Source: Apoderus coryli
Lineage: Eukaryota > Arthropoda > Insecta > Coleoptera > Attelabidae
Direction of reading: 5' to 3'
DNA length: 64,000 nucleotides
Assembly: GCA_911728435.2 (NCBI GenBank)
Contig: OU452198.1
Span: forward strand, 3,658,001-3,722,000
In this document: positions 3,805 to 47,830 of the stretch, piece by piece
How positions within the stretch are numbered: the stretch's first letter is position 1
Layout: each line of letters begins with the position of its first letter
Notes under the pieces: model-generated
What the model was told of the DNA's origin: nothing
Seen by the model: only the letters and a program-made list of their open reading frames with translations
Database searches by the model: none
Translations under genes and position numbers: made by a program

Positions 3805-3836
<32 letters not shown>

Positions 3837-22800: not shown

Positions 22801-25800
22801 AATTTCACGACCCCATTATTAGGAAAACAGATTTCAATTTTTTGGGGCCTTGGTTTGGTATAGGACGCTATCATACTGGACCTAATCAAGACCTAAGAAA
22901 CTATCCTTAATGACCGTTCCGAAGAATGTCCTTTGGCATGCAAATATCCCTTCATAATATCATTGTCCTGCGTAAATTTCACGACCCCATTATTAGGAAA
23001 ACAGATTTCAATTTTTTGGGGCCTTGGTTTGGTATAGGACGCTATCATACAGGACATAATCAAGACCTAAGAAACCATCCTTAATGACCGTTCCGCAGAA
23101 TGTCGTTTGGCATGCAAATAGCCCTTCATAACATCATTGTCCTGCATAAATTTCACGACCCCATTATTAGGAAAACAGAGTTCAATTTTTTTGGGGCCTT
23201 GGTTTGGTATAGGACGCTATCATACAGGACCTAATCAAGACCTAAGAAACTATCCTTAATGACCGTTCCAAAGAATGTCGTTTGGCATGCAAATAGCCCT
23301 TCATAATATCATTGTCCTACGTAAATTTCACGAGCCCATTATTAGGAAAACAGAATTCAATTTTTTGGAGGCTTGGTTTGGTATAGGACGCTATCATACT
23401 GGACCTAATCAAGACCTAAGAAATTATCCTTAATGGCCGTTTAGGCGTATGTCGTTTGGCATGCAAATAGCCCTTCATAATATTATTGTCCTGCGTAAAT
23501 TTCACGACCCCATTAGTAGGAAAACAGATTTCAATTTTTTGGGGCCTTGGTTTGGTATAGGACGCTATCATACTGGACCTAATCAAGACCTAAGAAACTA
23601 TCCTTAATGACCGTTCCGAAGAATGTCGTTTGGCATGCAAATAGCCCTTCATAATATCATTGTCCTGCGTAAATTTCACGACCCCATTATTAGGAAAACA
23701 GATTTCAATTATTTAGGGCCTTGGTTTGGTATAGGACGCTATCATACAGGACCTAAGATAGGACTGAGAAGATAGGTAACTGTGATTGTTTTGTATGTTA
23801 GTGTGTTTACTATTTAGTTATGACAATTGTCTATACTATGGATATAGAAAAAATTGACACAATAACAAAATTATAATTACAATAAGAAGAAGTCCAAATT
23901 AAAAAAAACATAAGAATCAAATTAAATTATAAGCAGTAATAACACCAATCCAATAAACCAATTTTAAAATTGAAATTGACTAACGGAGATTTTAAGATAA
24001 TATAATTTTAATTATTTGAAGGAAAAATAGTATGGTTGTTGGTCTCGGCTAGCGGCTCGCCCATCAAACTCCATAGTCGTCCGGGAAAGTGTTCCTTCTC
24101 TCACTAAGCACACAATATACTGTTGTTTATTTGGAGGATAAACAGTAATGAGAAGTAAAGAAACCTAAATTATGTATTTTTACTTATAAATGAATTACAT
24201 TACCTTCCCTAAGCCATTTAGTAGAATTCTGACTGTCTTCTTCAAAGAGTGCATGATACGCTTTGGCAATTTTACACCAGATTTCTGCATTGGTTGGTGC
24301 CAATGCGATACAATTTCTTAAACATTCAATAATCTTTTTTAATGCCGTAATTGACCCAGTGTCATAAATTTGATCCACTTTATTCAACGCCTAAAACAAT
24401 TTAGAAATAATTATTACTTTGTTCAGTGCCCGTTGACTTTTCCCTTTCAATGTACCGGGAGGCATTTTCGGAATTCGCCGACACATTAGCCGCTCGGAAC
24501 AACTCGGATAATATGAATCACAGATTCATAAAGTCCCGACGTATTAGACTAATGCGTCTGCGATTTACGTATGAAATTGCACATCTCAAACTAAGAATAT
24601 CTTTTCGTTTTGAATCAGATTAGTGTAACTAGTTTTGATTTCCCAATAAAAATAAATGTTGTACCTATTAATATTCAATTAATGAAATGAATCCAAAGAA
24701 ATTGCGCCGTGTGTGTTACAAAGATACATCATCTAATCAAAGATTAATCTTGTGTACATTAATCTTTGATCTAATACTATTAGCACCTATTAGATTGCAA
24801 ATAAGTGATAAAGACGAGTTTGAGGTTAGTAGATTATTTGTATTTTTAAGTTAGGTTTACGCCGTTAGATTTACGGTCGTGTCTGCTCGATCGTTGGACT
24901 TAAGTTCGAATAATTTCAGTAATTAGGGAGTTAAGGCAAAACCAAGGACGTATACGTATCTCCATACGTAAACGTGAGATTTTGGTTATGTTTACACTAG
25001 ATAAGGAGTCATTCAAAATAGAGTTAAGGTGCCATCCAATACGTATCGTATATGTGAAAGGTAGAGATAACACTTTACTTGAGAAAAAGACTATTTTAGA
25101 TTTTTCTACTTCCATTTACTATGTTGTTAATATTATTGTTTTTTTAATTATTAATTAAATACAGATATATTTTATTATGTATATCTATAAACAATAACAG
25201 AAAAATGTTTATAATTGGTACAAAATAAACTACTACTACTAACAATAATAATAAAGTATTTATTGCAAAATAGCTTAGCTTAATTTTCAATTTAGATTGA
25301 GTTTTTAATGTTCTATTCTAGATATTCGTACAAGTTCATGTAATTCCGACAACAATCGGTTCAATACGTTTAAGTATACGATACGCGTAGAGGTACATAT
25401 GTTTACGGCCTTCGTATCGTTAAACGTATCATAAATTTAAAGAGCGCATGCGTAGATGTCAAAAGATACGTTTACGTATACGTCACTGGCTTTGCCTTAA
25501 CTCCCTATTGGCGCATCGGACGGTCGTTTACGGTGAGTAATGTATATGCTCGTCCGGAAAATACTAGGACTTCCTAAGAAAGTACAATCAATTAGGTGTC
25601 AGCGATGTTTCGCTGCTTTATTTCCGCTTTTTCAAGCTTGTTCCAGTTCGATTGTACAATTAAAACAATTAGATGACATTTCTATATACAACAACAGTAC
25701 CAAAAAATGTTCCTATACGCAATTAATGATCAATTCAGTTAGTGTTGACCATTAACTTGTATACAGGGTGAGTCACGAGGAACTGTACATACTTCTACCA

Positions 25801-28800
25801 TAAGTAGAGGCACGTCAGGAGATTATCAAATGACCATTAAAAAATTATAAAAAATAATAATCCTCCTTGTTTTGATTATTAATATACAGGGTGAATTATG
25901 GATCTCCATCAAAAAAAATGTTTCGTCATATCTTTTCAATGATTAAGTCGATTTATCTCATTTTTCTATAAAAGTGTGTACTGGTGTCTGGCAACTAACT
26001 AACATATTCAGAATTGAAAAAATCCAGGTCCGTCTTCGAGAAAATTCTATATAAGTGTGTACTGGTGTCTGGCAACTAACTGACATATTCAGAATTGAAA
26101 AAATCCAGGTCCGTCTTCGAGAAAATTCTATAAAAGTGTGTACTGGTGTCTGGCAACTAACTGACATATTTAGAATTGAAAAAATCCAGGTCCGTCTTCG
26201 AGAAAATTCTATAAAAGTGTGTACTGGTGTCTGGCAACTAACTAACATATTCAGAATTGAAAAAATCCAGGTCCGTCTTCGAGAAAATTCTATAAAAGTG
26301 TGTACTGGTGTCTGGCAACTAACTGACATATTCAGAATTGAAAAAATCCAGGTCCGTCTTCGAGAAAAATTGTGGGACTGCTTCATATTCAACACTTCAC
26401 CCTGTATATGATTTTTCAAAAATCTGATATAATTTTTTCAGAAGGCATAAATAGACAGTTAGACCTGGGTATTTAAATTTTTTGTTACACTCACCTCACA
26501 TTTCCAATTAAAGATTCATTTTAGAGCCAAATTGAAAATTGGCAATAATGAAGTATCTTACTGTATAATAATGTTTAGTTATTAAAAAGAAATCTTCAAA
26601 ATAGACAGAAACGACACACTGTGCTCCAGTATGGTAGATACCATAATTTGAATTGATTTACAGGTCCGGATTTAAAAATCTGGCATATATGGTACATCCC
26701 AATAATTCACCCTGTATGTAACTTTTTCCACCCGTAATAGACAGAAAACAGATAAAAAATGTTTGTAATAACCTAGTTTTCTTATTTGTTTGAGGAAAAC
26801 TCATGTGTCTAATTATTTTAGTCGGAATGAAATGAACAAGCCAGGGAAATGTTTGTTCATAAATAAAAAAATAAAATAAAAAACAATAACCAAACAATAA
26901 AACAGTTTTAACAATGTGGAAAAAGTAAAAAACAATTTAATAAACATTACGATTATAAAACACAACAGCTCATTAACAGAATTATTCACTGTTGCAATAT
27001 TATCAGAAATGACCCACTGACAATTACACATTTAAACATTCGTCAAGAAAAGTGTATTAAGGCAGATGGATTTCATTTTGAACATCTTTTATAATCGTAA
27101 TGTTTATTAAATTGCTTTTTACCTTGTACCACATTGTTAAAACTGTTTTATTGTTTGGTTATTGTTTTTTATTTTATTTCTTAATTTATGAATAAACATT
27201 TCCCTGGCTTGTTCAGTTCATTCCGATTAAAATAATTAGACACATGAGGTCTCCTTAAACAAATAAGAAAACTAGGTTATTACAAACATTTTTTATCTGT
27301 TTTCTGACTATTACAGGTGGAAAAACTTACATACAGGGTGAATTATTGTGATGAACCAGATATGCCAGATTTTTAAATCCGGCCCTGTAAATCAATTCAA
27401 ATTATGGTATTTACCATACTGGAGCACAGTTTGTGTCGTTTCTGTCTATTTTGAAGATTTGTTTTTAATAACTATACATTATCATACAGTAAGATACTTC
27501 ATTATTGCCATTTTTCAATTTGGCTCTAAAATGAATCTTTAATTGGAAATGTGAGGTGGGTGTAACCAAAAATTCAAATACCCAGGTCTTACTGTCTATT
27601 TATGCCCTCTGAAAAAATTATATCAGATTTTTGAAAAATCATATACAGGGTGAAGTGTTGAATATGAAGCAGTCCCACAATTTTTCTCGAAGACAGACCT
27701 GGATTTTTTCAATTCTGAATATGTCAGTTCGTTGCCAGACACAAATACACACTTTTATAAAAAAAATGAGATAAATCGACTTAATCATTGAAAAGATATG
27801 AGGAAACATTGTTTTGGTGAAGATCCATAATTCACCCTGTATATTAATAATCAAAACAAGGAGACATTTTTTAATGGTCATTTGATAATCTCCTGACGTG
27901 CCTCTACTTATGGTAGAAGTATGTACAGTTCCTCGTGACTCACCCTGTATACAAACGTCATTTAATTGTACATTCTAGCTGGATGCATTGAAAAAGCAGA
28001 AATAAAGCCGCCAAACGCCACTGATACCTAATATCATACTATATAACCCACTATATAAATAAAAACATAAATTATTGAAGACGCCAAATTGTCAATCATG
28101 AATTAATTTTTTTCATAGTTTCCAAACTGTAACCGAGATTTGTAAGAAAAAAAAAAACATGGGAAACCCTTTAGGAGTTGGCACATTGCATGTATTTCAT
28201 AAATCGCCGACGCATTAGTCTAAAACGTCGGGACTTCGCATTACCCGAGTTATTCCGAGCGGCTAATGTGTCGGCGAATTCCGAAAATGCTACCGGAAGG
28301 CCCGTTTAAGAGTGACCACTACCTTATCTGAGAAACTATAAAACAATACAACAAAAAGTTAAATAGGAAATTTTGGTTGGGTTAACTGGAGATTTTTATT
28401 TATTCAATTTTTACATATACAGGGTGGCTCATATTGCAGTGACGGCATTCAACTTCATTATTTTAAATAGCACACCCTATACATATATTGATACATAAAT
28501 ATACCGGGGAAAATATTCACTTAAAGTGAGTCAACTATGTAGTCGAATATAACTATATATATTATATAGAAAATCCAATGAATGAGTTATATTCGACTAC
28601 ATAGTTGACTCACTTTAAGTGAATATTTTCCACGGTACATTTAATACGACGTGCAGGACATGCAATAGAAGAAACACTGCGACGTGGTCTGTGTCTTTGA
28701 TGCCTTCGAACTGAAGGTCGAGACAGCAGAACCACAAAACAGCATAGCGTTTGTGAGTTGGAGGGGACATTGGTGTTTAGTACGCGTTTATGCACTACTG

Positions 28801-31456
28801 TCACCAGTGCTTCGGTAGCTCAATGGTAGAGCAAATGCCCGGAAAGCGTAAGAAGTGGGTTCGATTCCCACCTGAAGCGAATGTTTTTTCCAACTCACGG
28901 ACGTTCGTTTTCTTAATTGGATTTTCGATACATAAATATGTATCTAAATAGATAGAGTCCTAAAAAAACGGACAACTTAAAACAATTTTTTTCGAATTTA
29001 TGGGTGACTTTTCGTCCACACGGTATATAATATTAAAAAACTCACATCCCTAGTAAATGCGAGTAAATAACTTATTTTCTACACTTACCTCTTTCAAATT
29101 TAAACGACTGTAGTTTTCACCGTCTTCATCGACATCGCAGTCATCTTCCAGATTATCAAGAGCAGTTTCAAAGGAATCGACCGTTTCATCAGATTTAACC
29201 GACTCTATATCGTATTCCTTATTCGTATGATCACGTCGGCGTCGTCGTCTGGAATATGCAAAAGAGGATGACACGTTATTTTTATTCCTTAACAAGATAA
29301 AATCAGAGAACAACTAAGGGAGAGAATATAAAGTCTGGTGGGCGCGGCTAGTTTGCGCACCTCATTCGCGCAGAGGGATTCGATGACGTACTGAGTTTAG
29401 ACAGAGGCGCCACACGCAATTTAGTCTAGTTTAGCGTTGCGAGCCAACGGATATTCAGTGGCAGCGTTAATCTGAGATTTTGGATTGTAAGTGAGATATT
29501 GTGTGATTACGAAATTTACATTCTTATCGTTTTTCAGTTAACATGAATAAACCAAGTGTGGCATAGTGTGTTCAGCGAAAGGATGTGCGAACAAGAGTTA
29601 TAACTGTAACTTATCGTTTTTCACATTTCCAAAGGATCAAGCAAGGTAAGTTTCGTTTCGATTAACTTATTGTATTGTATTTTTATAGTTATGTGGTATA
29701 CAGGGTGATGCATTATGTTTGCAACAAACGAAAACTGGAGATTCCTGAAAACAATTCAAGCATTTTTTGCCATTGAACCCATGTCCCCAAATGCCTCGAT
29801 ACAGGGTGTCCAAATTTAGTGGTCAAATTAACTTTTTTGTCCATTTCTCAAAAACTAGCTAACCGATTTTGACAAAATTTTACATGCATTTGAGGACAGA
29901 TAACCTAAAATATTCTGAATTATTTTGGCTTTCATTAACGGTTCATTGGCGTAGATATAGGGGGCATTTGGATAAATTTTACACATAAATTAGTTAAACA
30001 CAGCTTTGACAAGCTTCATTATTTTAAATTATCACTTTTTTTAAAAGAGCAACTTATAAGCTACAAAAAAGTTAATTACGTCGATGTTGGTGTTTCTACC
30101 ATTTTTATGGAAACCGATAAATTGCAAGTTAATGGTAGATTGAAATCAAAATAACGTTTACCAGAAATCAAAATGAAAAATCAAAGTTGCCGTGGAAAAC
30201 GATTTAATAATAACAAATTACTTAACAATAAATTTTAAGGTCTATCAGCACCATTGATGTATTAACTAAAGAGATATAACTATTTACTATATAAAATGCC
30301 CCATACATTAAAAAAAATAGCATATACTCTAAGGTCTATCAGCACCATTGATGTATTAACTAAAGAGATATAACTATTTACTATATAAAATGCCCCATAC
30401 ATTAAAAAAAATAGCATATACTCTATAAGTCTGGGCGACTGGGAGTGGAGGGAATCATCACATATTACATTATATATCACATTATATAATTATATAATTA
30501 TTTTAAATTTAATGCTTATAAAATATACTTCTGTCACTGTCACTTTTTTTTTTCTTTTTTTGGATAGGATTGACTACTTACAGTATTAATTTCAAGAATG
30601 CACGCTTTGCCAGTTTTTAGATATGAGGTCAGCAGTTAAAACTCGCGTGAACATATAGCATAGAGTACGGCCCTGGATCAATCAATGAAATATTTATGTT
30701 ATTTGTCTGTAAGGGTATATAACCATATTGAATCTAAATCTTTTATTTGACTACATATACCTACTAATTTCAAATATGTCGATTTACCTATTTATTGAAA
30801 AAAAAATATTGCAATATTAATATTTAATAAATTTGTTTTATTAATATTAATTATTATATATTTGTAACACATTTGTGCTCGTGTAATATACGTTTAAAGT
30901 GTATATTATTATGAATTATCAATCGCCCCCGTATACCCCATTCGGTAATGTTCGGAATTAACTGCTAGAATTTTAACTGCTGTCTTCACACTGGTGTGTG
31001 CATTAATCTTTGGTATTTGGTATAGTCAATGCTACGCTTAATCTCAAATTATACGAAGTATAATGACCGCTATCGTCATAATCTGTAGATAATATATAAC
31101 CCATCCCATTCTAACAAATTCTAAGATCAAAATTTATATTTAAACGTAACCCACCGAAATACCTATAGTTCTTAAATTTGTTCGTTTACATTTGACTGAA
31201 CTTTATTAAATAAATATTAACTTAGGATATTATACAGTCGTAAGTACCAAAATTTACGAACATACCTCTCGTCCTCCTCATCTATAAGATACTGCAGTTT
31301 ATCGCAAATCTCTTCCCCGCCAGTAGGTCTCGGTTTTCTATAGTTTTTTATAGGCTGTGGTTGTGGTTGATTTTGTTGTATAGCCAAATATGTTGTAACT
31401 ATGGTTACTATAAGCACGCCTGCGATTCCAAAAATCATTCCGAAGAGGCCTGCCAT
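13849..31456 (-). CDS. Rmdn: Regulator of microtubule dynamics (RMDN) family TPR protein, copy B
   Basis: Seven minus-strand exons: 31456-31266, 29248-29089, 24390-24204, 20654-20417, 16426-16324, 15134-15030 and 13902-13849 (345 residues, all GT-AG). Residues 2-26 are a membrane anchor (MAGLFGMIFGIAGVLIVTIV). An Arg-rich, acidic linker follows, then TPR-like helices (NAEIWCKIAKAYHALFEE, SHKWYAILVGC, AHHLLGRFYFELVGLSW, YQDALDHFMLAEKW, AKCNKELGNTTTALKWLNRA). The RMDN family (RMDN3 is PTPIP51) is membrane- and ER-mitochondria-contact-associated. The family FFAT motif is not evident; SFETALD (89-95) could be a weak phospho-FFAT. Copy A at 39985-41480 is its tandem paralogue with matching intron phases. 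The introns hold a Penelope-like element, mariner, satellite, foldback element and others. Exon 5 ends inside the terminal repeat of a PIF-like transposon. The last exon (DAAITKEIHELHRNLYY) is short and less certain. Confidence 0.8.
14052..14830 (-). mobile_element. non-LTR retrotransposon fragment (RT domain)
   Basis: Minus-strand translation in two frames: APLIFSICINDISEGFLSSY, FADDLKIYRAF (catalytic FADD intact), LSLNVGKCKLAVF, then [31 protein letters not shown] and VQRRFLKYLAFKIDGPSRGY. It is a jockey/CR1-like LINE, truncated at both ends, inside the last intron of RMDN copy B. The same family is recognisable at 50580-50800 and 55830-57335. Confidence 0.8.
15140..16330. mobile_element. 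PIF/Harbinger-like TIR element inserted in a coding exon
   Basis: The ends TTGCCGAGTGCACCGAC and its exact reverse complement are flanked by the direct repeat TTA (15137-15139; 16331-16333), the 3-bp target typical of PIF/Harbinger. No transposase was recognised in the AT-rich 1191-bp interior. It lies between TPR-coding sequence ending YNS (minus strand) and ENKLYIAKC, which are contiguous in copy A. The terminal repeat contains GT in CGA|GTGCAC (minus strand, 16324/16323), used here as the donor of RMDN copy B intron 5. The acceptor AG (15136-15135) is in the flank. Confidence 0.7.
16516..16556 (-). ncRNA. hammerhead ribozyme-like motif near a Penelope-like element
   Basis: Minus strand: CTGATGA, stem II GGAG-CTGAGT-CTCC, GAAA, self-complementary ACATGT, cleavage-site C. 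Stem I is weak (AGG/CCT, then mismatches). It lies 0.3-0.4 kb from the Penelope-like sequence starting near 16860. Penelope-like elements are known to carry such motifs in their terminal repeats. The orientation is opposite to the reverse transcriptase ORF, so it probably belongs to the inverted or tandem partner copy. Confidence 0.55.
16860..18135 (+). mobile_element. Penelope-like element, reverse transcriptase (partial, damaged)
   Basis: The frame 16926-17957 reads IYGLPKIHKPDIPIRPVVCY, VSFDVKNLYPSIPPEDCL, FVQKSGLAMGSNLSPLLSEI and YSRYVEDIFAIF, the hallmark order of Penelope-like RTs. The catalytic box is YVED instead of YVDD. Upstream, the frame continues past the first Met but meets a TAG. 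Downstream it shifts frame near 17950 and continues (KKCFSIPFIDNLSYKIQTYF) before breaking. No GIY-YIG endonuclease was seen. The first about 185 bp recur inverted at 19454-19643. It lies in intron 4 of RMDN copy B and is probably inactive. Confidence 0.85.
18136..19453. other. intron sequence between Penelope-like copies
   Basis: Includes a T tract (18168-18180) and an (ATA)n run near 18580. No ORF or known element was recognised. It may be degraded Penelope 3' sequence. Confidence 0.35.
19454..19643 (-). mobile_element. inverted Penelope-like fragment
   Basis: The reverse complement closely matches 16860-17040, the 5' part of the RT region of the Penelope-like element. It ends abruptly at mariner sequence. 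The inverted, 5'-truncated partner is a common arrangement in this class. Confidence 0.8.
19644..20200 (-). mobile_element. mariner transposase remnant (5' half)
   Basis: Minus strand from about 20080: MELNREHFRAIIFCNFRRGL, CMDELN, stop, then RTSVYRWYGEFNRGRSSLQD, REVILQDRHVTYQEI and WIPYNLSIAQKKARVDW. Identity to typical insect mariners is high. One TAA interrupts it, and the catalytic C-terminal half is missing because the element stops where the Penelope fragment begins. The 5' end lies somewhere near 20150-20200. Confidence 0.85.
20760..21190 (+). mobile_element. TACAGGGTG-type end and a LINE C-terminal scrap
   Basis: tacagggtgattcaaattcg at 20761 resembles the ends of the foldback element at 25762. 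At 21085-21180 the plus frame reads RNSDLHNYNTRRGNNIVPRR, a typical LINE RT C terminus. Both are small relics inside an RMDN copy B intron. Confidence 0.5.
21240..23765. repeat. satellite array, about 174-bp monomer, about 14 copies
   Basis: The successive starts of the aatttttt block at 21621, 21794 and 21969 give monomers of 173-175 bp. Landmarks within each are ggacgctatcata, ccttaatgaccgttcc, tttggcatgcaaata and cacgaccccattatt. Variants recur at larger spacing: cataaatttc at 22451 and 23145 (four monomers), and aggacataatc at 22183 and 23051 (five monomers). This indicates higher-order duplication. It is unrelated in sequence to the array at 35.9-39.3 kb and lies in intron 3 of RMDN copy B. 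Confidence 0.95.
23770..24203. other. intron sequence, nothing recognised
   Basis: AT-rich; no ORF, RNA gene or repeat end was identified. Confidence 0.35.
24440..24560 (+). repeat. dispersed repeat, inverted partner at 28195-28310
   Basis: Shares ttcggaattcgccgacacat and tagccgctcggaa, followed by gtcccgacgt and ttagactaatgcgtc, with the reverse complement of 28195-28310. The two copies bracket the foldback element. Confidence 0.75.
24731..24775. mobile_element. micro-insertion (31 bp) with 7-bp target duplication
   Basis: Positions 738-768 of this kilobase begin CAAAGATTAAT and end ATTAATCTTTG, an exact 11-bp inverted repeat around cttgtgtac. The direct repeat atctaat flanks it (24731-24737; 24769-24775). 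Confidence 0.75.
24924..25507. mobile_element. MITE with TAGGGAGTTAA termini
   Basis: The ends TAGGGAGTTAAGGCAAA and its reverse complement enclose 0.58 kb rich in acgtatacg-type palindromic motifs. A second member with the same first 11 bases lies at 42437-42776, and part of the interior recurs at 47600-47750. No coding capacity. Confidence 0.7.
25762..27949. mobile_element. foldback (long inverted-repeat) element
   Basis: The ends TACAGGGTGAGTCACGAGG and its reverse complement lie between TA dinucleotides. The left arm (25762 to about 26960) and right arm (about 27090-27949) are inverted copies separated by about 130 bp. The left arm is about 330 bp longer because its 81-bp repeat is present five times against once on the right. 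Each arm also contains internal CAGGGTGA boundaries (25887, 26397 and 26707 on the left; mirrored near 27336, 27644 and 27833), so it looks built from smaller elements. No transposase. It lies in intron 2 of RMDN copy B. Confidence 0.85.
25970..26376. repeat. five tandem 81-bp units in the left foldback arm
   Basis: gtgtgtactggtgtctggca starts at 25974 and recurs at 26055, 26136, 26217 and 26298, exactly 81 bp apart. Because 81 is a multiple of three, both strands show repetitive open frames (for example CTGVWQLTDIFRIEKIQVRL); these are by-products, not genes. Confidence 0.95.
28195..28310 (-). repeat. inverted partner of the repeat at 24440-24560
   Basis: Reverse complement of 24440-24560 with a roughly 20-bp gap near the middle; see that entry. 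Confidence 0.75.
28502..28637. repeat. 136-bp near-perfect palindrome
   Basis: Arms of about 55 bp (gggaaaatattcacttaaag, then tgagtcaactatgtagtcga) are exact inverted copies around an AT-rich centre with partial ata palindromes. It lies 170 bp from the tRNA-like gene. Probably a small foldback or MITE. Confidence 0.85.
28809..28878 (+). tRNA. tRNA-like cloverleaf with anticodon GGA (possible tRNA-derived repeat)
   Basis: Acceptor GCTTCGG/CTGAAGC, D arm GCTC/GAGC with AATGGTA loop, anticodon loop CCGGAAA, and a perfect T arm GTGGG-TTCGATT-CCCAC. The anticodon stem has only four pairs, one of them wobble. GGA would decode serine, but the variable region is 4 nt, whereas serine tRNAs have a long variable arm. 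So the identity is doubtful; it may be a tRNA pseudogene or the head of a SINE. Pol III A and B boxes are intact. Confidence 0.55.
29304..29700 (+). pseudogene. THAP-domain 5' end, copy 2 (broken, then interrupted)
   Basis: Near-identical to 12281-12678. Here a deletion near 29552 shifts the frame after MNKP, so the THAP finger is not readable from the ATG. The copy ends at gtggtata, where a TACAGGGTG-type element end begins; the same position is uninterrupted in copy 1. It lies in intron 1 of RMDN copy B. Confidence 0.65.
29697..29830 (+). mobile_element. TACAGGGTG element ends
   Basis: tatacagggtgatgcattat at 29697 starts exactly where homology to THAP copy 1 stops, and atacagggtgtccaaattta follows at 29800. 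The other end of this insertion was not found. Confidence 0.5.
30237..30424 (+). repeat. perfect tandem duplication of 94 bp
   Basis: Two consecutive copies (30237-30330 and 30331-30424) starting aaggtctatcagcaccattg appear identical, suggesting a very recent duplication. Confidence 0.95.
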
Positions 31457-31847: not shown

Positions 31848-31877
31848 CTACAACCAAAGATTAATCTTTGCTACAAC
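31848..31877. mobile_element. micro-insertion (16 bp) with 7-bp target duplication
   Basis: CAAAGATTAATCTTTG (31855-31870) is flanked by ctacaac on both sides (31848-31854; 31871-31877). It is the family of 24738 and 47668 with its spacer lost. Confidence 0.7.
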
Positions 31878-31881
31878 TAAA

Positions 31882-31938
31882 CTAAAGACCACATAACACA
31901 CAAGTTATGTGCCACGTTATGTGTTATGTGCTAAAGAC
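31882..31938. mobile_element. micro-insertion (41 bp) with 8-bp target duplication
   Basis: 31890-31930 starts CACATAACACA and ends TGTGTTATGTG (exact 11-bp inverted repeat). It is flanked by ctaaagac at 31882-31889 and 31931-31938. The 8-bp duplication fits the hAT consensus nTnnnnAn. Confidence 0.7.
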
Positions 31939-32857
31939 TAAGCGTAAAATGTAAAAATAAGAAAAATAGGAACACTTTGCTAATGATGGTGGGAAACTGT
32001 GGACGGGACTTCCCCGTATTTCCTATACTATAATAATTATGTAATAGTGCAATGTTGTCGCTTCCTAGATGGCATGAATTATATCATTGTTTTATAAGGA
32101 AAGACAATGATTATATCCATGCGATTATAACGGTCACAACTGTTTTAAATTATGTTGACTCTTGAAAATATTTTACGATAGGTAAGCCTCGTTTATATAA
32201 GAATACTACATTATAATATTATGTTACATGTTCCAGCGATTTGGCAATACAGCACGTGGTGTGTGTGTGGTAGCAGACGTTAATTTCCTTTTATACCAAG
32301 CCAATGGGAACCTTCGTGCGCGCGTCTGCTTGTGATCCAGAGCGCGCTATATTTAAAATGTGAAGTCGTAAGCCGGTTTTACACAGCATAATCATAAATA
32401 TCGATATATTCACAAAAGTTGAATGCATTGTAGACACAGAAATCTTATATTATATATATATACTCTAGAATGATAATCCCGTAGTACAAAAATGTAACCA
32501 AAAGTGTAGAGCTGTCCATAATGCGCATGATCACCAGTATCTTATTTTTCAACAGGACCGGCTTTGATTAAATGTAATATTACTGTTATGTTATAGGTAT
32601 ATTTAAAATTAAATTTTACCATTTGGTAACATTCAAATAAAAAAATGGAATAAAGGAATTTAAGAAATAAAAAATTACATTAAATATCTAAATACTTTAT
32701 TGTCTAACAGGTACAACCCAATAATAATAAATCTAAGCAGAAACGAGAAATAAGTAAAAATTCTAATACTGGAAAATATCTTAAGGACATGAGCATTCTA
32801 ATTATTTATTTTACTATTATATAATATTTGTTTGTTTATACAACCACCTTAGGCGTC

Positions 32858-33522
32858 TTACCTCTCTACAGCCTTCAAAGAAGGGGTGCAAGAAACAGTG
32901 ACTTCACGAATATTTTCCGTGTCCATGTAAACCACTTCCATATCATCCGTACTACTCGCAATAGTATTTTGTGACAAAACATGGTTGGTAGAACTTGTAT
33001 TCTCAGCAATTTCATGGAGGATTATATAATTAAGTATATTCCAGTTTAACAACAGAATTCAAACGAACTTTGTATACCTACACAACGTAGGAAATATATT
33101 CTTGACATACATATCATGCATTTTTGACAGACTGCTTTTAAGTAAACAGTGTCTTGATATCAAACGATTAAGAATTTAACTTCCACTCTCATTTACATAA
33201 TCTCTTCTTTTCAACAAAAGTTTGGGAACTGCATCGGGTACGAGGGTGATCCTCTTGCCGTCTTCTCTACAAATGATATCTTCTGCAGCGAAATGCTTAC
33301 TGCATATGACATTCCCATCACATAAATTTTCTGTACTAGGATCCCAATGACCGCATCCAAACATCATGACTTTTTTTGGTCAAGCTAAAAATGAGTATCA
33401 TGTCAATGGTATCATATTGACTCAAACTGAGACTGTTAGAAACCCGAAACAATAACTTACTGAAAATATTTAATACCAGGAATGAGACCTTCATTTTTAC
33501 ACCACAACACTATACACCTCAT
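32858..33522 (-). pseudogene. THAP-domain gene or remnant
   Basis: Exon 1 (33522-33461) reads MRCIVLWCKNEGLIPGIKYF with donor gtaagt. The next segment (acceptor at 33385) continues HLTKKSHDVWMRSLGS, then stops. The neighbouring frame carries the second half of a THAP finger (NVICSKHFAAEDIICREDGK, DAVPKLLL). One frameshift separates them, so it is either a pseudogene or has an unrecognised short intron. A further open segment, 33052-32858, ends at a gtaaga donor and could be a later exon. THAP fingers are C2CH DNA-binding domains. Confidence 0.5.
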
Positions 33523-33529
33523 TGTTTGT

Positions 33530-34780
33530 TAAATAAACGAACTAAAACCAAAATAACAAATATTAAAAACCATTTTAATCACAAATAGGTATATCTATCA
33601 ACAATTAAAATATACCACGAATAAAACCATAACTCAATTATAAAACCTATCTGAATTGTTGTGAAGCCGACTCTGACAGATATTCCCACTACGAGAAACG
33701 TCATTGCGAAAACAGACGCTGTTGCGAAATCTCTTAAATTTAATAAGATTTGGAAAAAAATGTTTCGGTCATATTGCTGAAAACTAAACAGTATGCAATT
33801 TTACCGATAATATTTAATTATTTGATTTTGTCAAGCAGTTTCGTATGACGCAACATATGGATTTATTTATAAAACAGATAGGTATGTCGCATAAATTCTG
33901 TAAGGCGAACGACAAAATAGTTTTAAATATGGCAGCTCTGTACTGAAAATAAGATATTGAGGAGCATGCGTAGATCGTGAAAACTCTGCATACACTTTTT
34001 GGTATACGGCTGGATTTAATTAGCATTCTAGGGTACATAGGTATATGATATAAGATTTCTATGATTGTATCACTATCACTGTTTCGGAATGTGGCATGGA
34101 GTATGGTGATATGTCCAATTACGTCGGCCACGGACCGGATTCGTCGTCTGCCTTTACCATAATACAGAGTTTTAAATCAAATTTATTTTGGTGTGCATCT
34201 ATATTTGAAGTTGTATTGTACGAAAGGGTATCTGTTGAGAGTTTAGAGTCAAAGCTATTCATCGTCATTCGCCGACGTTTTGTCTATAAATTAGACCATA
34301 TACTCCGGAGAAACAAACAACAAGTAGGAAACAGCAAATGATAAAAATTTATTCGATCACAAATTCATTATTAAAATTAATTTACTAATACACATACATA
34401 AATACTAACAATTATTAACAAATGCATATTTCGGAGACAATATTATTACTAAAAACATAAATTATATAGTACAAAAAAGAACATATAATTAAAATAATCG
34501 TTTTTAACAATATTACAAAAATATAAATCATTATACGTAGTGTCTCAAAAATGTAGGTACCTACCTATATGCTCAAGTTCTACCAAAAATTTGATGAGGA
34601 TTACTTCTCGGCAGCGGCGTTCAATGCACAAAATCAAAAAAGCATTGATTACCGCATGAGATAATTTAGCTATTAATAGAAATGTTCAAAATAAAAACAA
34701 ATTTTATTTTACAATTAAAGTACCTTGTCAGTGCAAGCATCACAAATGTATGTAACTATATTATGTATTTTTAAGTACAG
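33530..34780. other. intergenic, nothing firm
   Basis: AT-rich with no recognised gene or element. A minus-strand stretch, 34290-34110, starts after an AG with KRRRMTMNSFDSKLSTDTL, faintly like RMDN exon 2, but it is not supported by neighbouring exons. Confidence 0.3.
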
Positions 34781-34810
34781 GGTATATTTTACTCAATAGC
34801 TATATCCGTT

Positions 34811-38800: not shown

Positions 38801-39355
38801 AAGGAAAGTTGTCAAAAAAAGTCTGGCAACACTGGCATGAGCAGGCACAATCGAAAGAGTGAGTCGCAAAGTTTCAGATCATGTGTTTTTTTCGGTAAAA
38901 TATTTTCTAGTCCCGGCCATCCGCCACTGTTTTGATTTTTGAGGGATATGAAGGGTTTCTGTCACTCAGTTGAAGGAAAGTTGTCAAAAAAAGTCTGGCA
39001 ACACTGGCATGAGCAGGCACAATCGAAAGAGTGAGTCGTAAAGTTTCAGATCATGTGTTTTTTTCGGTAAAATATTTTCTAGTCCCGGCCATCCGCCACT
39101 GTTTTGATTTTTGAGGGATATGAAGGGTTTCTGTCACTCAGTTGAAGGAAAGTTGTCAAAAAAAAGTCTGGCAACACTGGTATGAGCAGGCACAATCGAA
39201 AGACTGAGTCGTAAAGTTTCAGATCATGTGTTTTTTCGGTAAAATACTTTCTTCTGCCGACCACCCGCCACTGTTTTGATTTTTAAAGGATATGAAGGGT
39301 TTCTGTCACTCAGTTGAAGGAAAGTCGTCACAAAAAGTCTGGCAACACTGAAAAG
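35870..39355. repeat. satellite array, about 173-bp monomer, about 20 copies with higher-order repeat
   Basis: Each monomer contains ctggcaacactgg, cacaatcgaaagagtgagtc, tttcagatcatgtgtttttt and cgccactgttttgattttt. Spacing of cgccactg is 173-181 bp. A block of about 861 bp (five monomers) is repeated: 36668-37091 recurs as 37529-37952 with the same variants. Open frames on the minus strand in this array are by-products. It lies between the two RMDN genes, or in the last intron of copy A. Confidence 0.95.
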
Positions 39356-39396
39356 AGTGAGTCGTAGAGTGTTATCCCGTTTGATTCAGTTAGCAT

Positions 39397-39840: not shown

Positions 39841-39984
39841 GAGAATATAGACTTTACAAGTTGTACTTGATACTCTTCAAAGAATTAAAGCATTAAATAA
39901 TATTGTAAAAAAGCAATTGAGTGATTTTTAAAAACCCAAATTGGGGAGGAAAAGAGGATTGTTGGAGATGATTCTCCCCCTTAC

Positions 39985-41480: not shown

Positions 41481-41502
41481 TTTATTGTTAAAAAGCAACA
41501 AT

Positions 41503-42122
41503 TCGTTAAACTAAAACAAATAGTATTATTAGCTTAACTATCAGGTAATTATTGTTGAAGCACTATCACAGCATTAAGATATATTTATGCTGTGGCACTA
41601 TTAAGTAGGTAGTACATACACAATTATTTATTTTGATAACATTAAGAATTAATTGAAGTTCAAAGACCAGTATAATTTACAGTTTTAACACCATATAACA
41701 GAAAATTATGTTAAGGTATAAAAATAAAAAATTCATGAATATTAACGGTTGTATTGAAATGGGGACTTCACATTCACATAATTAACAAAAAAAAATTATA
41801 AATATAAAAAAATTAATTTCTTAAAAAACAAAACAGTACAAACTTTATAAAATAGGTGGTAGGTAGTAAAAAACACTCACATCATCAACATTCACCTGAT
41901 GTGAGAATATCCTCGAAACTCATTTTGTATTGGTAAATTACTTAATTGAGAAAATAGAACACATAAAACTAAATTTGCATGCGAGCAAATGATATTTGGT
42001 ATCATTAGATATTTCCTTATCGTTTTTAACAAGCAACTATCCAACTAGGTACTCAATGCTACAGTTCTGGATTAAAATTTCCTAGGTATATACCATAAAC
42101 AGTTTTCACTCACATCAATATC
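41503..42122. other. 5' flank of RMDN copy A
   Basis: AT-rich, no gene or element recognised. Presumably contains the copy A promoter. Confidence 0.35.
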
Positions 42123-42188
42123 CAGTGGTGATTTATAAACTTTCCGTTTGCGTTCTGCGCTGCCGTCCACCGTCCGATTTCACCAATG

Positions 42189-42246
42189 GTGAAATCCATC
42201 GGAATCTTATATAATATATATAATATAAGATTTCTGTGGTGAAATC
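42189..42246. mobile_element. micro-insertion (42 bp) with 8-bp target duplication
   Basis: 42197-42238 starts CATCGGAATCTTATAT and ends ATATAAGATTTCTGTG (imperfect inverted repeat). It is flanked by gtgaaatc (42189-42196; 42239-42246). Removing it and one duplicate restores a perfect palindrome centred on caccaatggtg, which shows it is an insertion. Confidence 0.8.
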
Positions 42247-42436
42247 GGACGGTGGACGGCAGCGCAGAACGCAACTTACGTATGGACACATGACAATTTA
42301 TTGGTTGTGTTGCCAGAGGCCGACGGAAAACGGCAGTTTATAAATAAAAGTACGCAACTTGCGTGTGGTGAAATTGGACGGTGGACGGCAGCGCAGAACG
42401 CAAGCGCAAACGCAAAGTTTATAAATCACCAGTTAT

Positions 42437-42776
42437 TAGGGAGTTAAAGTTGTACATGAGACGAGACGTATCTATGCTGACGTAACGGAAATTATTTAGG
42501 ATAACTCAATTGAAAAATCTATGACCAAAAATGAGTTAAAGTTTGATTAGCAACGTAACGCATTTCTCTTAGGTTATGTTTATATTTGTTTAACTCGTTC
42601 GGATACCTCCGGTCATACAATCGAGGATTTCCGGTAGAATGCGTTCTCGTCTGAATGACACGCAAGAGACCGTACGGGATACGTATCCGCAAACGAGATG
42701 AAAAATTCATCTGCGCATGCCTAGCTGTCAATAGATACGTATACGTTCTTGTCTCATGAACAACTTTAACTCCCTA
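42437..42776. mobile_element. MITE with TAGGGAGTTAA termini, second member
   Basis: TAGGGAGTTAAAGTTG and its reverse complement enclose about 340 bp; the same family as 24924-25507. The flanks read ttat on both sides, a possible 4-bp duplication. Confidence 0.65.
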
Positions 42777-43834
42777 TTATAAACTGCCGTTTTCCGTTTG
42801 CGTCGCCCGTCGTTCAACATAATTCAAGTTTATCTTTCTCCGTCGGCCGCTGGCAACACAACCAATAGAAACGCAATAAATTGTCATGTGTCATATGTCC
42901 AATTTGACAGAAATCATATCATCCCGTAAATTCAAATTATTATTTACCCCAATTGTTATTTGCTCCCAGTCCTCATTAAATAATCTATGTTTATATTTAT
43001 GATATTGTATATTATTAGTAAATAATAAGAACCAAAACCGAAAGTAAATAAAAGAATTATAGGTTATGAGTTGAGACAACCGTTGCAAAGTTTATAAATC
43101 ACGATGTAGAACCATAGAAGAAGTAAGCTACGCTAATAGCTTTCTTATTCTGTGGTAGAACTGTAACGGCAAACGACAACGGCAGCGGTGAACGCAAACG
43201 TCAAGTTTATAAATCACCAATTAAGCTGCCTTTTGTGCGAGGGAGATTTAAAGATTCGGGTATTTTGGTATGGAGAGACTTGATGGTGGGGGAATAGCAA
43301 TGTCATTGTCTTTAAAAGACAATGGCAATGTCATGAGACCCTTTTACTGCGGTGGGTATCTGAAGATTCGGTGATTCGGTCTTAATAGTCTTAAAACTTC
43401 GAAAAGCCAACACTAATAAACACGACAGACTAAACACTTTATTATTTAAGGTTAGTAAAGGTATATTAGGTTATTTTTGTTGTTATTTATTTTATTGTTT
43501 TCAACGAAGCCGATCATACCGCATGCGCAAAGTGCAAATATCCGAGAAAACAGAAACTCAAACGAACTTTTGGGAATTTGGCAGTGATGTGCAACGATTA
43601 CTTTTTCAAGTATCGAGTAGATACTGATACTTTATATCGGAGTATCAGATACTTTGTATTCGTTACTTAGTAATCATTAATATAAATACCTATATGTCAT
43701 ATTGGAAATCGGTTTCTTAACAGAGATAAATACGTGACCAAATAAATGGTTTACTATAAAGTATGAAAATGGAAATGAAATTGGTTGATAAAATATAGGA
43801 TTTTTTAAATAGTATACTCGTCTAAAACTAGAAA

Positions 43835-45721
43835 TTAAAATAAATGCGAATTACCATTTAAAAAAACCACCTTTTCTACATTTTTTGGTGTAAGTCTACT
43901 TCTACGTTCCGAAACCACTTGACCTGCTTTTGAAAACACTCGTTCACTTGGAACAGAAGTTGCTGTTACACCTAAGTATTTTTGTGCCAACTTAGCTAAA
44001 TTTGGATACACTGCTTCCCTGGTTTTCCACCATTTGAGAGGGTCATCTTGCCTTTGAATGTTTTGTTCTTCGGCATACTGTTTGCTTTCAATAATTGAAG
44101 CGGCTACTGTCGATGCGTTTTTTGTAATTTTTGCATCAAAACTTTTCCATATTGAATCCTCCGCAACTTTGTTTTTAGTTTCTGACACTGAGGTTCTGTC
44201 AACTTCGAGAGCTTCATTGTTTTTCTTAATGAGCTTTGACATTTCAGCTATTAGAAGTTCTCTCACTTGAATTATTGCATTCTCATCACTAAAACCTTTC
44301 TTTTTAAACCGGGGATCCAAGTAGGTTGCTTTCGCAAGTATAACATTATACTCAATACGATGAAATCTCGTTTTTAAGCCCTGTATCAAATTGTCTTTCA
44401 AGCTCGAAGCAGTTTCATCGTCAACCTGAAGGCTACTTAAGAATTGTTTTAAGCTTTCAATCAAGGGTATTATTTTTGAAACACATACATTTTTGTCAGC
44501 ACTTAGTTCTCTAGTTACTTCCTCGAAAGGTTTTAAAAGGACACAATATTGTTTTAACACTGACCATTCAACTGCAGTAAGTGCCTCAACAGGGTTATGC
44601 AAAATACCAATAGCTGCTTCAAGTGGTAACTGAACTTCCAAAATTCGGCTGAACATAAAATAGGTTGAATTCCAACGGGTTATAACGTCGTTAATTAATT
44701 TTAAGGTTTTGCCAATCATCTGCGTTTGCATTTCTTTAAGTTTTTCTGCTGCCGTAGTACTGCGATGAAAATGCTCTACAATTTTCTTTACTTTTTTCTG
44801 CAGTGGTTGTAATAAAATTAGGGAATCTTGAACCACGAGATTTAAAGTATGGGCCAAACATGGTAGATTTGGCCAGCCAGTTAGCTTTATTGCAGCTGAA
44901 ATGTTTCTTGCATTGTCAGTTATTACAGCTTCTATTTTATTGGCAATATCCCAGTCTTTTAAAATTTGCAATAACATATTTCTAATATTTTCAGCTGTAT
45001 GGCTTTCTTGGAAATGGAAGCAACCCAATAGCAACGATTTTTGTATCCACTCACTATTCACATAATGCGCAGTTACCGCCATGTAGTTTTCAACGGAACG
45101 AGATGTCCAAGTGTCAGATGTGAGAGTTATAAACTCGGCTTCATTCAATAAAGATTTCACATTCAATACAACGTCATCATATTTTTTATTTAGTAAATCT
45201 CGGCTAAAAGTGGTTCTTGATGGTAGTTGATACGAGGGATCTAGGGCAGCTATTAGGGCTTTAAATCCACTATCCTCTACTACAGAAAATGGTTGTAGAT
45301 CTTGTAAAATCATATTTAGGACCATTCCATTTAGCATTTTTGTTCGAGATACAGATGCTGGGCGAACAGGAAAAGCGGTAACTTTGGTTTGGGTAAATTT
45401 GCGTGACGGTACTTTTTCGGCATTTCGAGATTGCATTAACGTAATGTTTGTATTACTATCATCTTCTGCTGGATCACGTGAAGGACCTGCTACAGGTACA
45501 TCCATAGTCATCCTGGTCGATTGAGACTGTGGATGTTTAGAATCTATATCTTCATGGAGTGTAGTGATATGTTTTGCTTTTAAATGTTTTTGTAAATTTG
45601 AAGTAGCGCCACCTTTGTAAGAAAACACACTTTTACAAATATCACACTTAGCTTTTTCACTACTAATTACAGTAAAATGTAACCAAACTTTACTTTTTTT
45701 CCTATCAGACATCGCTATCAA
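43835..45721 (-). CDS. hAT family transposase, BED finger plus dimerisation domain
   Basis: 628 residues without a stop. A BED zinc finger lies at about 12-50 (CDICKSVFSYKGGATSNLQK, then HLKAKH). The RNase H-like core has LTSDTWTSR (first Asp), VITDNARNI (second Asp) and CLAHTLNLVVQDSL with the hAT CxxH motif, followed by TRWNSTYFM. The C terminus carries the hAT dimerisation motif VTATSVPSERVFSKAGQ and RRSRLTPKNVEKVVFL. It resembles ZBED1/Ac-type enzymes, and its length is normal for the group. Start: first Met at 45721; a second at 45712 is equally possible. It is flanked by matching termini and target duplication, so it may be functional or only recently silenced. Confidence 0.93.
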   Translation of the reverse strand: MIAMSDRKKSKVWLHFTVISSEKAKCDICKSVFSYKGGATSNLQKHLKAKHITTLHEDIDSKHPQSQSTRMTMDVPVAGPSRDPAEDDSNTNITLMQSRNAEKVPSRKFTQTKVTAFPVRPASVSRTKMLNGMVLNMILQDLQPFSVVEDSGFKALIAALDPSYQLPSRTTFSRDLLNKKYDDVVLNVKSLLNEAEFITLTSDTWTSRSVENYMAVTAHYVNSEWIQKSLLLGCFHFQESHTAENIRNMLLQILKDWDIANKIEAVITDNARNISAAIKLTGWPNLPCLAHTLNLVVQDSLILLQPLQKKVKKIVEHFHRSTTAAEKLKEMQTQMIGKTLKLINDVITRWNSTYFMFSRILEVQLPLEAAIGILHNPVEALTAVEWSVLKQYCVLLKPFEEVTRELSADKNVCVSKIIPLIESLKQFLSSLQVDDETASSLKDNLIQGLKTRFHRIEYNVILAKATYLDPRFKKKGFSDENAIIQVRELLIAEMSKLIKKNNEALEVDRTSVSETKNKVAEDSIWKSFDAKITKNASTVAASIIESKQYAEEQNIQRQDDPLKWWKTREAVYPNLAKLAQKYLGVTATSVPSERVFSKAGQVVSERRSRLTPKNVEKVVFLNGNSHLF

Positions 45722-45748
45722 TATTTAAATTGAAATAAAAGATAAAAG

Positions 45749-46200
45749 GTTTAGAACACAGATCTAGAAAAGGGGGAGATAAAACTGTTTACATTTCCAA
45801 GCGATCAAACATCATTATTTGCAGATAGCGATAATGCCAAACTTCCGAGGTCATTCCCGCATTGTTTTAAAATACACTATTTTCATACGGCATTTTTTAC
45901 CGTTTTAAAGCAAAATATAACTTAGGTGATGGTACTAATTTTTGTGTATTATAAAACGATATACCCAAGATATTTTTTAGTTACTTTTTTATGAATTTTA
46001 ACATATTCAAAACATATTTCACTAAATTATAATTTATTTATGAAGTACACGTGGCAACTCTGTAAAGCAGAGCAACTTGAATAGTACGCGAAGAATTTAC
46101 TATTTCATTCATTTTTGTAATCAGCCGGTAGTTTGAGCTCTGTTGCCAACTATCCTTTGTATTCGTATTTATTTGCTGTTTCTAGATCTGTGGTTTAGAA
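45749..46200. mobile_element. hAT-like MITE inside the hAT transposon
   Basis: CACAGATCTAGAAA (45757) and its exact complement (ending 46192) are flanked by gtttagaa at 45749-45756 and 46193-46200, fitting nTnnnnAn. 436 bp, no ORF. It lies just upstream of the transposase start, so it could disturb the promoter. Confidence 0.85.
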
Positions 46201-46449
46201 CTACGATGCGACGGGACGCGACGGCTTATTATTATTAGGTGAGACTGGCGAGAGACCGGGAAAAACATTGCATTTTAGTAAGTAATATATACATACTAAC
46301 ATGTTATGAAATATTTTAAAAAGTACCTATATGAACTCTTCTGTTATAAAAGTATACCTCGTTTATTTAGTCTAGCTTATGTTTATATTAACAACATTAA
46401 GTTAAGTGGTTAGAGGCTTGGAAAAGAACGGAATGTGCGGGAAGCGGCA

Positions 46450-46500
46450 GTGTAGATCATAGAAAAAATATATAATATATTACTTATCTATGGTGTAGAT
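46450..46500. mobile_element. micro-insertion (35 bp) with 8-bp target duplication
   Basis: 46458-46492 starts CATAGA and ends TCTATG with an AT-rich centre. It is flanked by gtgtagat at 46450-46457 and 46493-46500. Confidence 0.65.
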
Positions 46501-47171
46501 ATATGCCTTGTAAAGTATACTATACTGAAAATATAAATATAACACTGATTAAACTCCAGTAGTTTAATCCTAAAATATAACTATAGATATTTCTTATTAC
46601 AAACACAACAATAATAAAAGGCCCAATAAATTGCTGAACATAAGATTTATGACGAGTTCGAGCACATTAAAGGGAACCGACAAGGCGCCAAATATCACTT
46701 ATTCAAAATATTAAATAAACAATAGCCGTGCAGTTCATCGCCCCCTGTACAACGCCGCGCAACCAGTACAGTAAGATCCGGTTCCGATTGGTTCATCGAT
46801 GAACTGATACAAGTAAACAGCTGCTGTGTCGAATCTACAACTTTCCTGGCGCGCTACGAATAACGAGTAATCAGTAATCACGTCAAAGGATTCGATTACT
46901 TCGGATATTCACAAGTATCAGATAAAAAGTATCGAGTAGATACTATTCGCCCACCACTAGAATTTGGAGAAACGGAGATTTACCTCTACGCACTGGCGTC
47001 ACGTGATTATGTATATGTAGCATTTTGGCGGATAAATTCTTGTTAGACCCGTTGTCCATGTGTTTATTCCATTATTAATAACTATTACCTATCACAAAAA
47101 CAAAACAGTTTAAACTCTTGTTGTATATATTTACACAATATATTTTCTCGTATTTTTAAATTAAAATAATT

Positions 47172-47300
47172 ATGTCGTCCCTTTCAAGACAACGGAAAAT
47201 AGAAGCAAATACTAATACTCCGAAAGTGCATAAAATCAAGAAATCTAAAATTGCATTAGACCATGTAGCTTCAGAGATAGTTAAAAAAATAATACGGTGA
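47172..47300 (+). CDS. 42-residue open frame in the PIF-like element
   Basis: Basic (KVHKIKKSKIALDHVASEIV), begins ATG, ends TGA. No family recognised. It may be the start of a truncated element protein or chance. Confidence 0.2.
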   Translation: MSSLSRQRKIEANTNTPKVHKIKKSKIALDHVASEIVKKIIR

Positions 47301-47599
47301 ATACTTCCAAATCTCCGAATCTCTCTCGCACAAAAGGCAGCTTTAGCGAAACCGAAAGATCATCTTTTTTGTGATTGTCTTTCACTTAACCTCGAAAACT
47401 TCTGAAAACAACCAAATCTGCTCTGAAAACGGGGAAATTATTTCTTCCATGATTGATTATCCATGCTTTAAACTTTTACAATTTAATCGTTTGATTCGAA
47501 ATCGTATTCCAAGAATTCGAAATAATTTCAATACTTTTAGAGGTGAACTAGCGGTTGATCAGTAAGCGGCAAGGGAGGTAGGTACGAAAGAATAACCCT

Positions 47600-47830
47600 T
47601 TTATTCTAGATATTCGTAAGTTGATGTAATTCCGACAATTGCTTCAATACGTTTAAGTATACGATACCAAAGATTAATGTGTGTACATTAATCTTTGACG
47701 ATACCTGCGCGTAGAGAACCATATTATGTGTACGGCTTTTTTTATCGTTAAACCGTTTAACGATAAAAGGGCGGTTGAAAGGAAACATATGGCAGGAACT
47801 CAAGTAACTTTTCTTTCTATCGCATACAGT
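47600..47830. repeat. partial copy of the 25.3-kb MITE interior with a micro-insertion
   Basis: tctagatattcgtaagttga and ttcaatacgtttaagtatac match 25316-25385. Between acgatac and the continuation, the copy has an extra 30 bp plus a duplicate acgatac (see 47661-47704). Confidence 0.7.
47661..47704. mobile_element. micro-insertion (30 bp) with 7-bp target duplication and a known empty site
   Basis: 47668-47697 is CAAAGATTAAT, gtgtgtac, ATTAATCTTTG, flanked by acgatac (47661-47667; 47698-47704). The related sequence at 25375-25395 has a single acgatac and no insert, so this is a genuine insertion. Confidence 0.85.

Follow-up and report, generated by a model that had tools for sequence, protein, structure and literature searches.

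The window analysed here, a stretch of 64,000 nucleotides from the beetle Apoderus coryli (C1:3658001-3722000, where C1 is contig OU452198.1; genome 428 Mb in 129 contigs), contains a population of very small near-palindromes that begin with CA, end with TG and lie between two copies of a 7- or 8-bp sequence. In our judgement these palindromes are very probably end-joining footprints at the repaired donor sites of departed P-superfamily transposons, and not mobile mini-elements. Within a family the ends are shared and the middles vary, the retained terminal sequence is limited, in the F1 and F7 samples, to 19-20 of the 31 nt of the parental repeat, and full parents exist, which together point to independent excisions of larger elements rather than to copies of a mobile unit. 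The evidence for repaired P-superfamily excision sites is strong for four of the seven terminus families distinguished below (F1, F3, F6, and F7); F2, F4, and F5 are read in the same way by analogy.

Probable footprints in the window and across the genome

An initial annotation of the stretch had described six insertions with CA...TG ends and exact 7- or 8-bp direct repeats, and all six were found again at the same positions. A blind scan of the window for inserts of 14-50 bp with inverted ends, taking the longest exact flanking repeat and covering all 16 end dinucleotides, gave an exact 7- or 8-bp repeat for 10 of the 681 candidates with CA...TG ends, compared with 7 of about 13,350 for the other 15 end dinucleotides pooled. 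First-order Markov simulations (60 runs) yielded a mean of 0.13 CA...TG matches and a maximum of 2. Beyond the first six, the scan revealed members at 32085-32109, 41567-41594, 43113-43154, and 43304-43324, and two decayed members (1090-1112 and 4100-4125) were recognised by their termini, giving 12 footprints in the window. The ten found by the scan are all flanked by both copies of the target duplication, a property that is also the scan criterion. Together with four footprints in a 200-kb block of the same contig (C1:5000001-5200000), the inserts measure 16-42 bp with a median of 27 (n = 16). The window is unusually dense in footprints: the same blind scan found three in 220 kb elsewhere, and a similar scan found one in a further 30 kb outside the window.

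Sorted by terminus, the window footprints form seven families, of which four (F1, F5, F6, and F7) have 7-bp duplications and three (F2, F3, and F4) have 8-bp duplications. F1 (terminus CAAAGATTAAT) is present in three copies. The first, 24738-24768 (31 bp; 24731..24775 with its duplications ATCTAAT, 7 bp), matches the start of the 31-bp F1 repeat over 13 and 19 nt; in the second, 31855-31870 (16 bp; 31848..31877, CTACAAC), the palindrome ATTAAT is a possible joint; the third is 47668-47697 (30 bp; 47661..47704, ACGATAC). The four F7 copies (terminus CATTGTCTTT) are 43304-43324 (21 bp; 43297..43331, GCAATGT), 32085-32109 (25 bp; 32078..32116, ATTATAT), 1090-1112 (23 bp; 1083..1119, GCAAAAA/GCAAATA with one mismatch), which keeps 17 and 6 nt, and 4100-4125 (26 bp; 4093..4132, GTATAGT), whose first base is A where the family has C. 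F5 (terminus CACAGCAT) is represented by 41567-41594 (28 bp; 41560..41601, GCACTAT), and F6 (terminus CAYAGAATAAG) by 43113-43154 (42 bp; 43106..43161, GTAGAAC), which retains 24 nt of its parent's repeat on one side and 18 nt on the other. The three footprints with 8-bp duplications had been grouped as a single second family, and proved to carry three unrelated terminus types: F2 (CACATAACACA) at 31890-31930 (41 bp; 31882..31938, CTAAAGAC), F3 (CAYAGAAATCTT) at 42197-42238 (42 bp; 42189..42246, GTGAAATC), and F4 (CATAGAAAAAAT) at 46458-46492 (35 bp; 46450..46500, GTGTAGAT).

Two further termini stand alone in the window. What had been called a half copy of F1 is indeed F1-type sequence, but it is a single element-type end (30996-31012, minus strand), matching the F1 footprint terminus at all but one of 17 bases and with only a tentative partner end. 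An F6-type single terminus lies at 14100..14116 (plus strand); a partner end was searched for and not found. A complete footprint with yet another terminus type was seen near C1:15.0 Mb (L037, 1824-1846), in the form CTGATGT CAGCGTAAATATAATTTACGCTG CTGATGT.

Empty sites are visible for two footprints. The F3 footprint at 42197 lies within a near-palindrome, and removal of the insert together with one repeat copy leaves two arms that are complementary throughout and separated by 3 bases, as had been proposed. For 47668, the paralogue at 25375 lacks the insert and one repeat copy as claimed, but 4 further bases are also missing; this paralogue is diverged, with about 80% identity to the 47668 locus.

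Genome-wide, F1 termini 0-20 bp apart were found at 1138 places and F7 termini at 880, compared with 0 and 1 for the respective reversed controls. Both totals include some copies carried by host repeats. The initial annotation had proposed a genome search in which flanking duplications are scored; it was carried out for F1 and F7, on samples chosen by termini alone, on contig C1 only and in list order, and the duplications were there. For F1 the sample consisted of the first 40 places listed outside the window; each had a 7-bp duplication with at most one mismatch, exact in 32. These 40 places correspond to 37 distinct contexts (30 exact), since four lie in one host-repeat context and three of them were dropped, among them L062, whose insert is different. 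The F7 sample, consisting of the first 20 listed places with two already known ones left out, gave 18/20 with at most one mismatch (12 exact) and 2 with two mismatches. Random 26-bp stretches served as control, and 394 of 100,000 had at most one mismatch, 17 being exact. The 17-nt F1 terminus pattern also gave 6 matches in viral and 8 in prokaryotic collections, which were taken as chance and left unread.

The four F1 scars in one context (L051, L054, L062, and L070) have the common flank AGCGTTG, TTATAGC, and the insert of L062 is longer and different. Their shared context is perhaps that of a scar amplified along with another host repeat.

Template switching during replication can produce quasi-palindromes. 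As an account of the footprints, chance palindromes or template-switch products with accidental direct repeats have a practically negligible probability: ten matches were observed in the window against 0.13 expected, the reversed controls gave 0 and 1 places genome-wide, and the 7-bp duplications at the sampled places refute this origin for F1 and F7.

The duplicated targets share a motif. Position 2 is a pyrimidine and position 6 a purine in 11/11 footprint and 4/4 parent 7-mers, against a background of 0.249; the duplication at 1090 was left out because of its mismatch, and the four parents include the likely F5 parent. Among the sampled places with exact duplications, 28/30 F1 and 11/12 F7 targets follow the same rule. 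The 7-bp targets agree better than chance with GTANTAC (p = 0.0009 for the footprints, 0.09 for the four parents), which is given as the Galileo target consensus in PMC4168063. The 8-bp targets fit GTCCGGAC (p = 0.0001, n = 5), listed in PMC3276498 as the 8-bp consensus of P next to the 7-bp target of 1360, GTTNAAC. Both duplication sizes thus fit within one superfamily.

Full-length parents and P-transposase coding sequence

Longer relatives, which the initial annotation had suggested looking for, were found for F1, F3, F6, and F7. Elements with footprint termini lie about 1.3 Mb from the window on the same contig, in the 200-kb block. The F1 parent (C1:5177607-5180478, 2872 bp) is flanked by the target-site duplication CCACCGT and has a 31-bp terminal inverted repeat (TIR) that is identical at both ends; the F7 parent (C1:5023611-5026330, 2720 bp; CTTAAAT) has a 31-bp TIR identical at 28/31 positions. 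The F6 parent occupies C1:5013420-5016002 (2583 bp; TTATTAG). In the window itself, a P-superfamily element of the F3 family, in which part of a transposase gene was recognised, extends over 32435..34063 (minus strand, 1629 bp), with the F3 terminus (17/17) at 32435, its inverted partner (2 mismatches) ending at 34063, and flanks ATTGTAGA/ATTGTATC that agree at 6/8 positions; one terminus of the F3 footprint at 42197-42238 is identical to it at 17/17 bases. A second F3 copy (C1:5154240-5155626, 1387 bp) has the exact 8-bp duplication GTCCGTAG. The likely F5 parent (C1:5175310-5176434, 1125 bp; ATAGTGT) matches at 12/17 end bases. The parents have TIRs beginning with CA, which are 31 bp long in F1 and F7 and extend beyond 31 bp in F3 and F6, and 7- or 8-bp target duplications with palindromic preference.

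Pieces of transposase were recognised in the F3 and F6 parents. An exon with the second half of a THAP domain lies at 33179..33379 (minus strand) in the window element (PF05485, E = 1e-4, 23.4 bits, cut-off 23.9); the two F3 copies score E = 9e-5 and 1e-4, both slightly below the Pfam curated cut-off. The F6 parent encodes a piece of the P-transposase helix-turn-helix (HTH) domain that likewise scores under the curated cut-off (PF12017, E = 5e-4). With the THAP exon, a homologue search and an NCBIfam search gave no match and a PDB search gave a single match at E = 0.99; a PDB search with a 96-aa piece of the F6 parent gave no match.

In the genome as a whole PF12017 has at least 84 matches (150/238 candidates scored), and none was found in 14 control genomes. 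A 717-aa frame outside the parents contains the domains PF21787, PF21788, PF21789, and PF12017 (RNase H, GBD, HTH); in PDB it matched 6p5a, 'Transposable element P transposase', with E = 7e-43. This transposase may be the one that mobilises the footprint families. Three loci (C5:6891081, C5:22533717, and C13:12661700) have 717-aa open frames and identical profile scores, the first having been read; this looks like recent copying.

A repeat at 29304..29700 (plus strand) has a reading that resembles THAP exon 1, the first half of the domain (PF05485, E = 0.0019, 19.4 bits, cut-off 23.9). A 398-bp copy at 12281-12678 is 95% identical to it, and the two repeats are perhaps further P-type remnants.

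How the scars may have formed

According to PMC7776569, the P transposase of Drosophila cleaves 17 bp inside the inverted repeats, and PMC2895639 describes donor ends with 17-nt 3' overhangs after this cleavage. By the same route, a P-superfamily element would insert here and duplicate a palindromic target of 7 bp (F1, F5, F6, and F7) or 8 bp (F2, F3, and F4). Cleavage by the transposase roughly 17 nt into each inverted repeat would release the element, and both chromosome ends would keep a single-stranded tail consisting of the element's first 17 or so nucleotides. End joining would fuse the two tails in one of three ways: through annealing of a short self-complementary word, directly, or with the addition of a few filler bases; in near-identical tails such words would be ATTAAT or GTAC for F1 and TTTAAA or TTATAA for F7. 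The predicted product is duplication-CA...TG-duplication, near-palindromic, immobile and, in the window, 16-42 bp long. The exact 17-nt cut, the annealing steps, the repair pathway with its enzymes, the germline origin and the immobility are our inference.

The retained repeat is in line with this scheme. At most 20/31 nt of the F1 repeat were kept (74 ends, 37 contexts) and at most 19/31 nt of the F7 repeat (100 ends, 50 listed places). The 37 F1 contexts comprised 16 distinct products and the 50 listed F7 places 26. The commonest F1 product (26 bp, 10/37 contexts) is the one expected from GTAC annealing in two identical tails, and the commonest F7 product, found at 9/50 listed places, is the TTATAA product.

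These numbers bear on the proposal of the initial annotation that the palindromes are the shortest transposable units, that is, ultra-small mobile elements of 16-42 bp moved in trans by a transposase. Much of what had led to it was borne out, namely an origin by cut-and-paste transposition, common termini, target duplications and genome-wide dispersal, and some products do recur (10/37 F1 contexts). Mobility of the palindromes themselves is nevertheless very improbable. Interiors vary within a family and no whole sequence is common to the copies (26/50 F7 and 16/37 F1 distinct), the commonest products are those predicted from annealing of palindromic words in near-identical tails, and there are full-length parents that have these ends and this target motif. 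Moreover, deleted P elements of Drosophila melanogaster are described as requiring terminal sequence of no less than 138 and 216 bp, and the ends of Anopheles miniature inverted-repeat transposable elements of P type (P-MITEs) as shorter than 100 bp (PMC1562414), yet both are far above the 8-21 bp available here.

A second alternative accepts excision of a P element and assigns the scars to extreme internal deletions by aborted gap repair, in which synthesis-dependent strand annealing is followed by end joining, instead of direct joining of the tails. Aborted gap repair is common in flies as reported in PMC2895639, and two scars would suit it, the F6 footprint with 24 nt and the F1 place C17:5369427 with over 31 nt retained on one side. 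As the general explanation it is very improbable, since it predicts broad sizes and the spacers are concentrated at 0-20 bp, with few at 21-50 bp (1138 versus 29 places for F1, 880 versus 55 for F7); a number of the longer places are double scars. It probably accounts for a minority of scars.

hAT elements leave hairpins on the flank and no element bases when they excise, which counts against reading the palindromes as footprints or relics of hAT elements. In favour of it, the hAT preference nTnnnnAn is partly matched by the 8-bp targets, as the initial annotation had pointed out; there is a hAT transposase frame at 43835-45721; and according to PMC3276498 the hobo motif likewise has GT...AC ends. 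The 8-bp length fits three of the window families, but the other four have 7-bp duplications, the length of 1360 and Galileo, and the F3 and F6 parents hold THAP and P-transposase pieces. A hAT origin is therefore extremely improbable.

Several observations weigh against end joining of P-superfamily tails as we describe it. With 24 nt of parent repeat on one side, the F6 footprint at 43113-43154 exceeds 17, and C17:5369427 exceeds the whole 31-bp repeat length. Prefix matches of 18-20 nt occur at 19/74 F1 ends and of 18-19 nt at 13/100 F7 ends, and the F3 joint cannot be fixed in such AT-rich sequence. The parents are incompletely accounted for: no F2 or F4 parent was found in the 284 kb searched, no recognisable transposase in the F1 and F7 parents (one frame each scanned), and no TIRs with matching duplications within 5 kb of the 717-aa frame, which is thus not tied to any footprint family. 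The scan for long elements with a 7/8-bp duplication and a TIR in the 200-kb block gave 9 with CA...TG and 37 for seven other end types; it is not specific for CA...TG, and parent identification rests on the termini. In the 220 kb elsewhere, the blind scan gave only a weak signal (3/2552 for CA...TG, 31/54,403 for other ends), so that the evidence there depends on matches to known termini. Finally, 22 of 66 fly excision isolates, most of them joined at longer microhomologies that reach the target, would be unrecognisable to these scans.

The 24-nt F6 end could be explained by copying from the sister before joining, which is described for P in PMC2895639. The additional 1-3 nt beyond 17 were taken as chance or microhomology; alternatively, cleavage may be slightly deeper than 17 nt.

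Some further features of the window concern other repeats and genes. The hAT frame (43835-45721, minus strand) is uninterrupted over 628 aa, with a BED finger and a hAT dimerisation domain, and among named homologues the closest, at 60% identity, belongs to the beetle Diabrotica. A 436-bp element (45757-46192) with 14-bp inverted ends CACAGATCTAGAAA and the 8-bp duplication GTTTAGAA is separated by about 35 bp from the start of this frame. A 509-bp element at 3498-4006, perhaps a hAT-type MITE, has ends CAGTGTTGTTC and the 8-bp duplication GGTTTGAA; internally it contains a poly-T tract and a tandem repeat of 20 bp. Satellite-like arrays cover 21277-23756 (period 174 bp, 14 copies) and 35893-39350 (172 bp, 20 copies). 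A tRNA-Ser(GGA) at 28808-28880 is situated near a 59-bp near-perfect inverted repeat with arms at 28496-28554 and 28585-28643.

Likely repeated use of targets and comparison with known systems

From the listings with 21-50-bp spacers, 14 double scars with a 7-bp gap and two nested-looking cases were picked by eye. Eight of the 14 show one and the same 7-mer at all three positions, on the outer side of each scar and in the gap; in seven of these eight the scars differ. Neighbouring 7-mers differ by at most one mismatch per pair in 12/14; in the remaining two the left copy is off by 7 (L113) and 4 (L116) bases. The scar sequences differ within the pair in 12/14 (all except L109 and L112), which makes it unlikely that these 12 pairs arose by duplication of a single scar. 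Further double scars in the same listing have gaps of 1, 6, 10 or 13 bp. In both nested cases the outer scar is of the F7 family: in L114 it encloses an F6 scar flanked by a separate duplication, GTCTTTA, and in L115 an F1 scar flanked by ATAAAGA.

L113 (C1:31229865-31229974) differs from the other double scars in that the 7-mer on its left, GCTATAT, is reverse-complementary to the other two copies, which both read ATATAGC.

Each insertion duplicates its own palindromic target, and excision would therefore leave two fresh landing sites at which re-entry is possible. It seems reasonably likely that the genome holds a natural record of transposon loss, with thousands of P-superfamily scars, a germline end-joining spectrum at single-base resolution and repeatedly used 7-bp targets.

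P-element footprints have so far been known from laboratory fly crosses, and no description of a comparable genome-wide footprint set was found in the open-licence PMC papers. More than 2000 places with exact ends in two families would allow germline end joining to be measured without an experiment, including the length of microhomologies and the templates of filler bases. Nested scars would let cycles of insertion and excision be ordered, and the set would test whether the 17-nt cut is common to P-superfamily members with 7-bp targets. A note of caution also follows: small palindromes flanked by target duplications may be miscounted as MITEs though they are repair products.

The closest counterpart is the P{wa} element of D. 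melanogaster, whose joints read target-CATGATG...-filler-...CATCATG-target in Table 1 of PMC2895639. In that report, 44 of 66 isolates keep both target copies and sequence from both sides, with inserts of 7-44 bp and a median of 30; the other 22 do not, and in 20 of them a join at a long microhomology has eliminated the repeat wholly or for the most part, often together with some of the target. The P{wa} excision joints resemble the footprints found here in their CA...TG form, in at most 17 nt kept of each repeat, and in a centre of microhomology or filler. They were, however, obtained in the laboratory from Rad51-deficient males and concern a single element with an 8-bp target (PMC2895639), whereas the scars of A. 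coryli are natural, number over two thousand places for two families, and mostly have 7-bp targets.

Within the P superfamily, 1360 and Galileo share the 7-bp duplication and the palindromic target with the families described here (PMC3276498, PMC4168063), and no description of their excision footprints was found in the open-licence PMC literature. The 31-bp TIR of the F1 and F7 parents contrasts with the long TIR of Galileo and equals that of the P element as given in PMC7776569. The P elements and P-MITEs of Anopheles gambiae, with P-type TIRs of 27-31 bp and non-autonomous relatives (PMC1562414), are comparable to the 1.4-2.9 kb parents found here. The Anopheles elements are mobile and make 8-bp duplications; those of A. 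coryli described here, in contrast, are very probably not elements but the repaired sites from which elements have departed.

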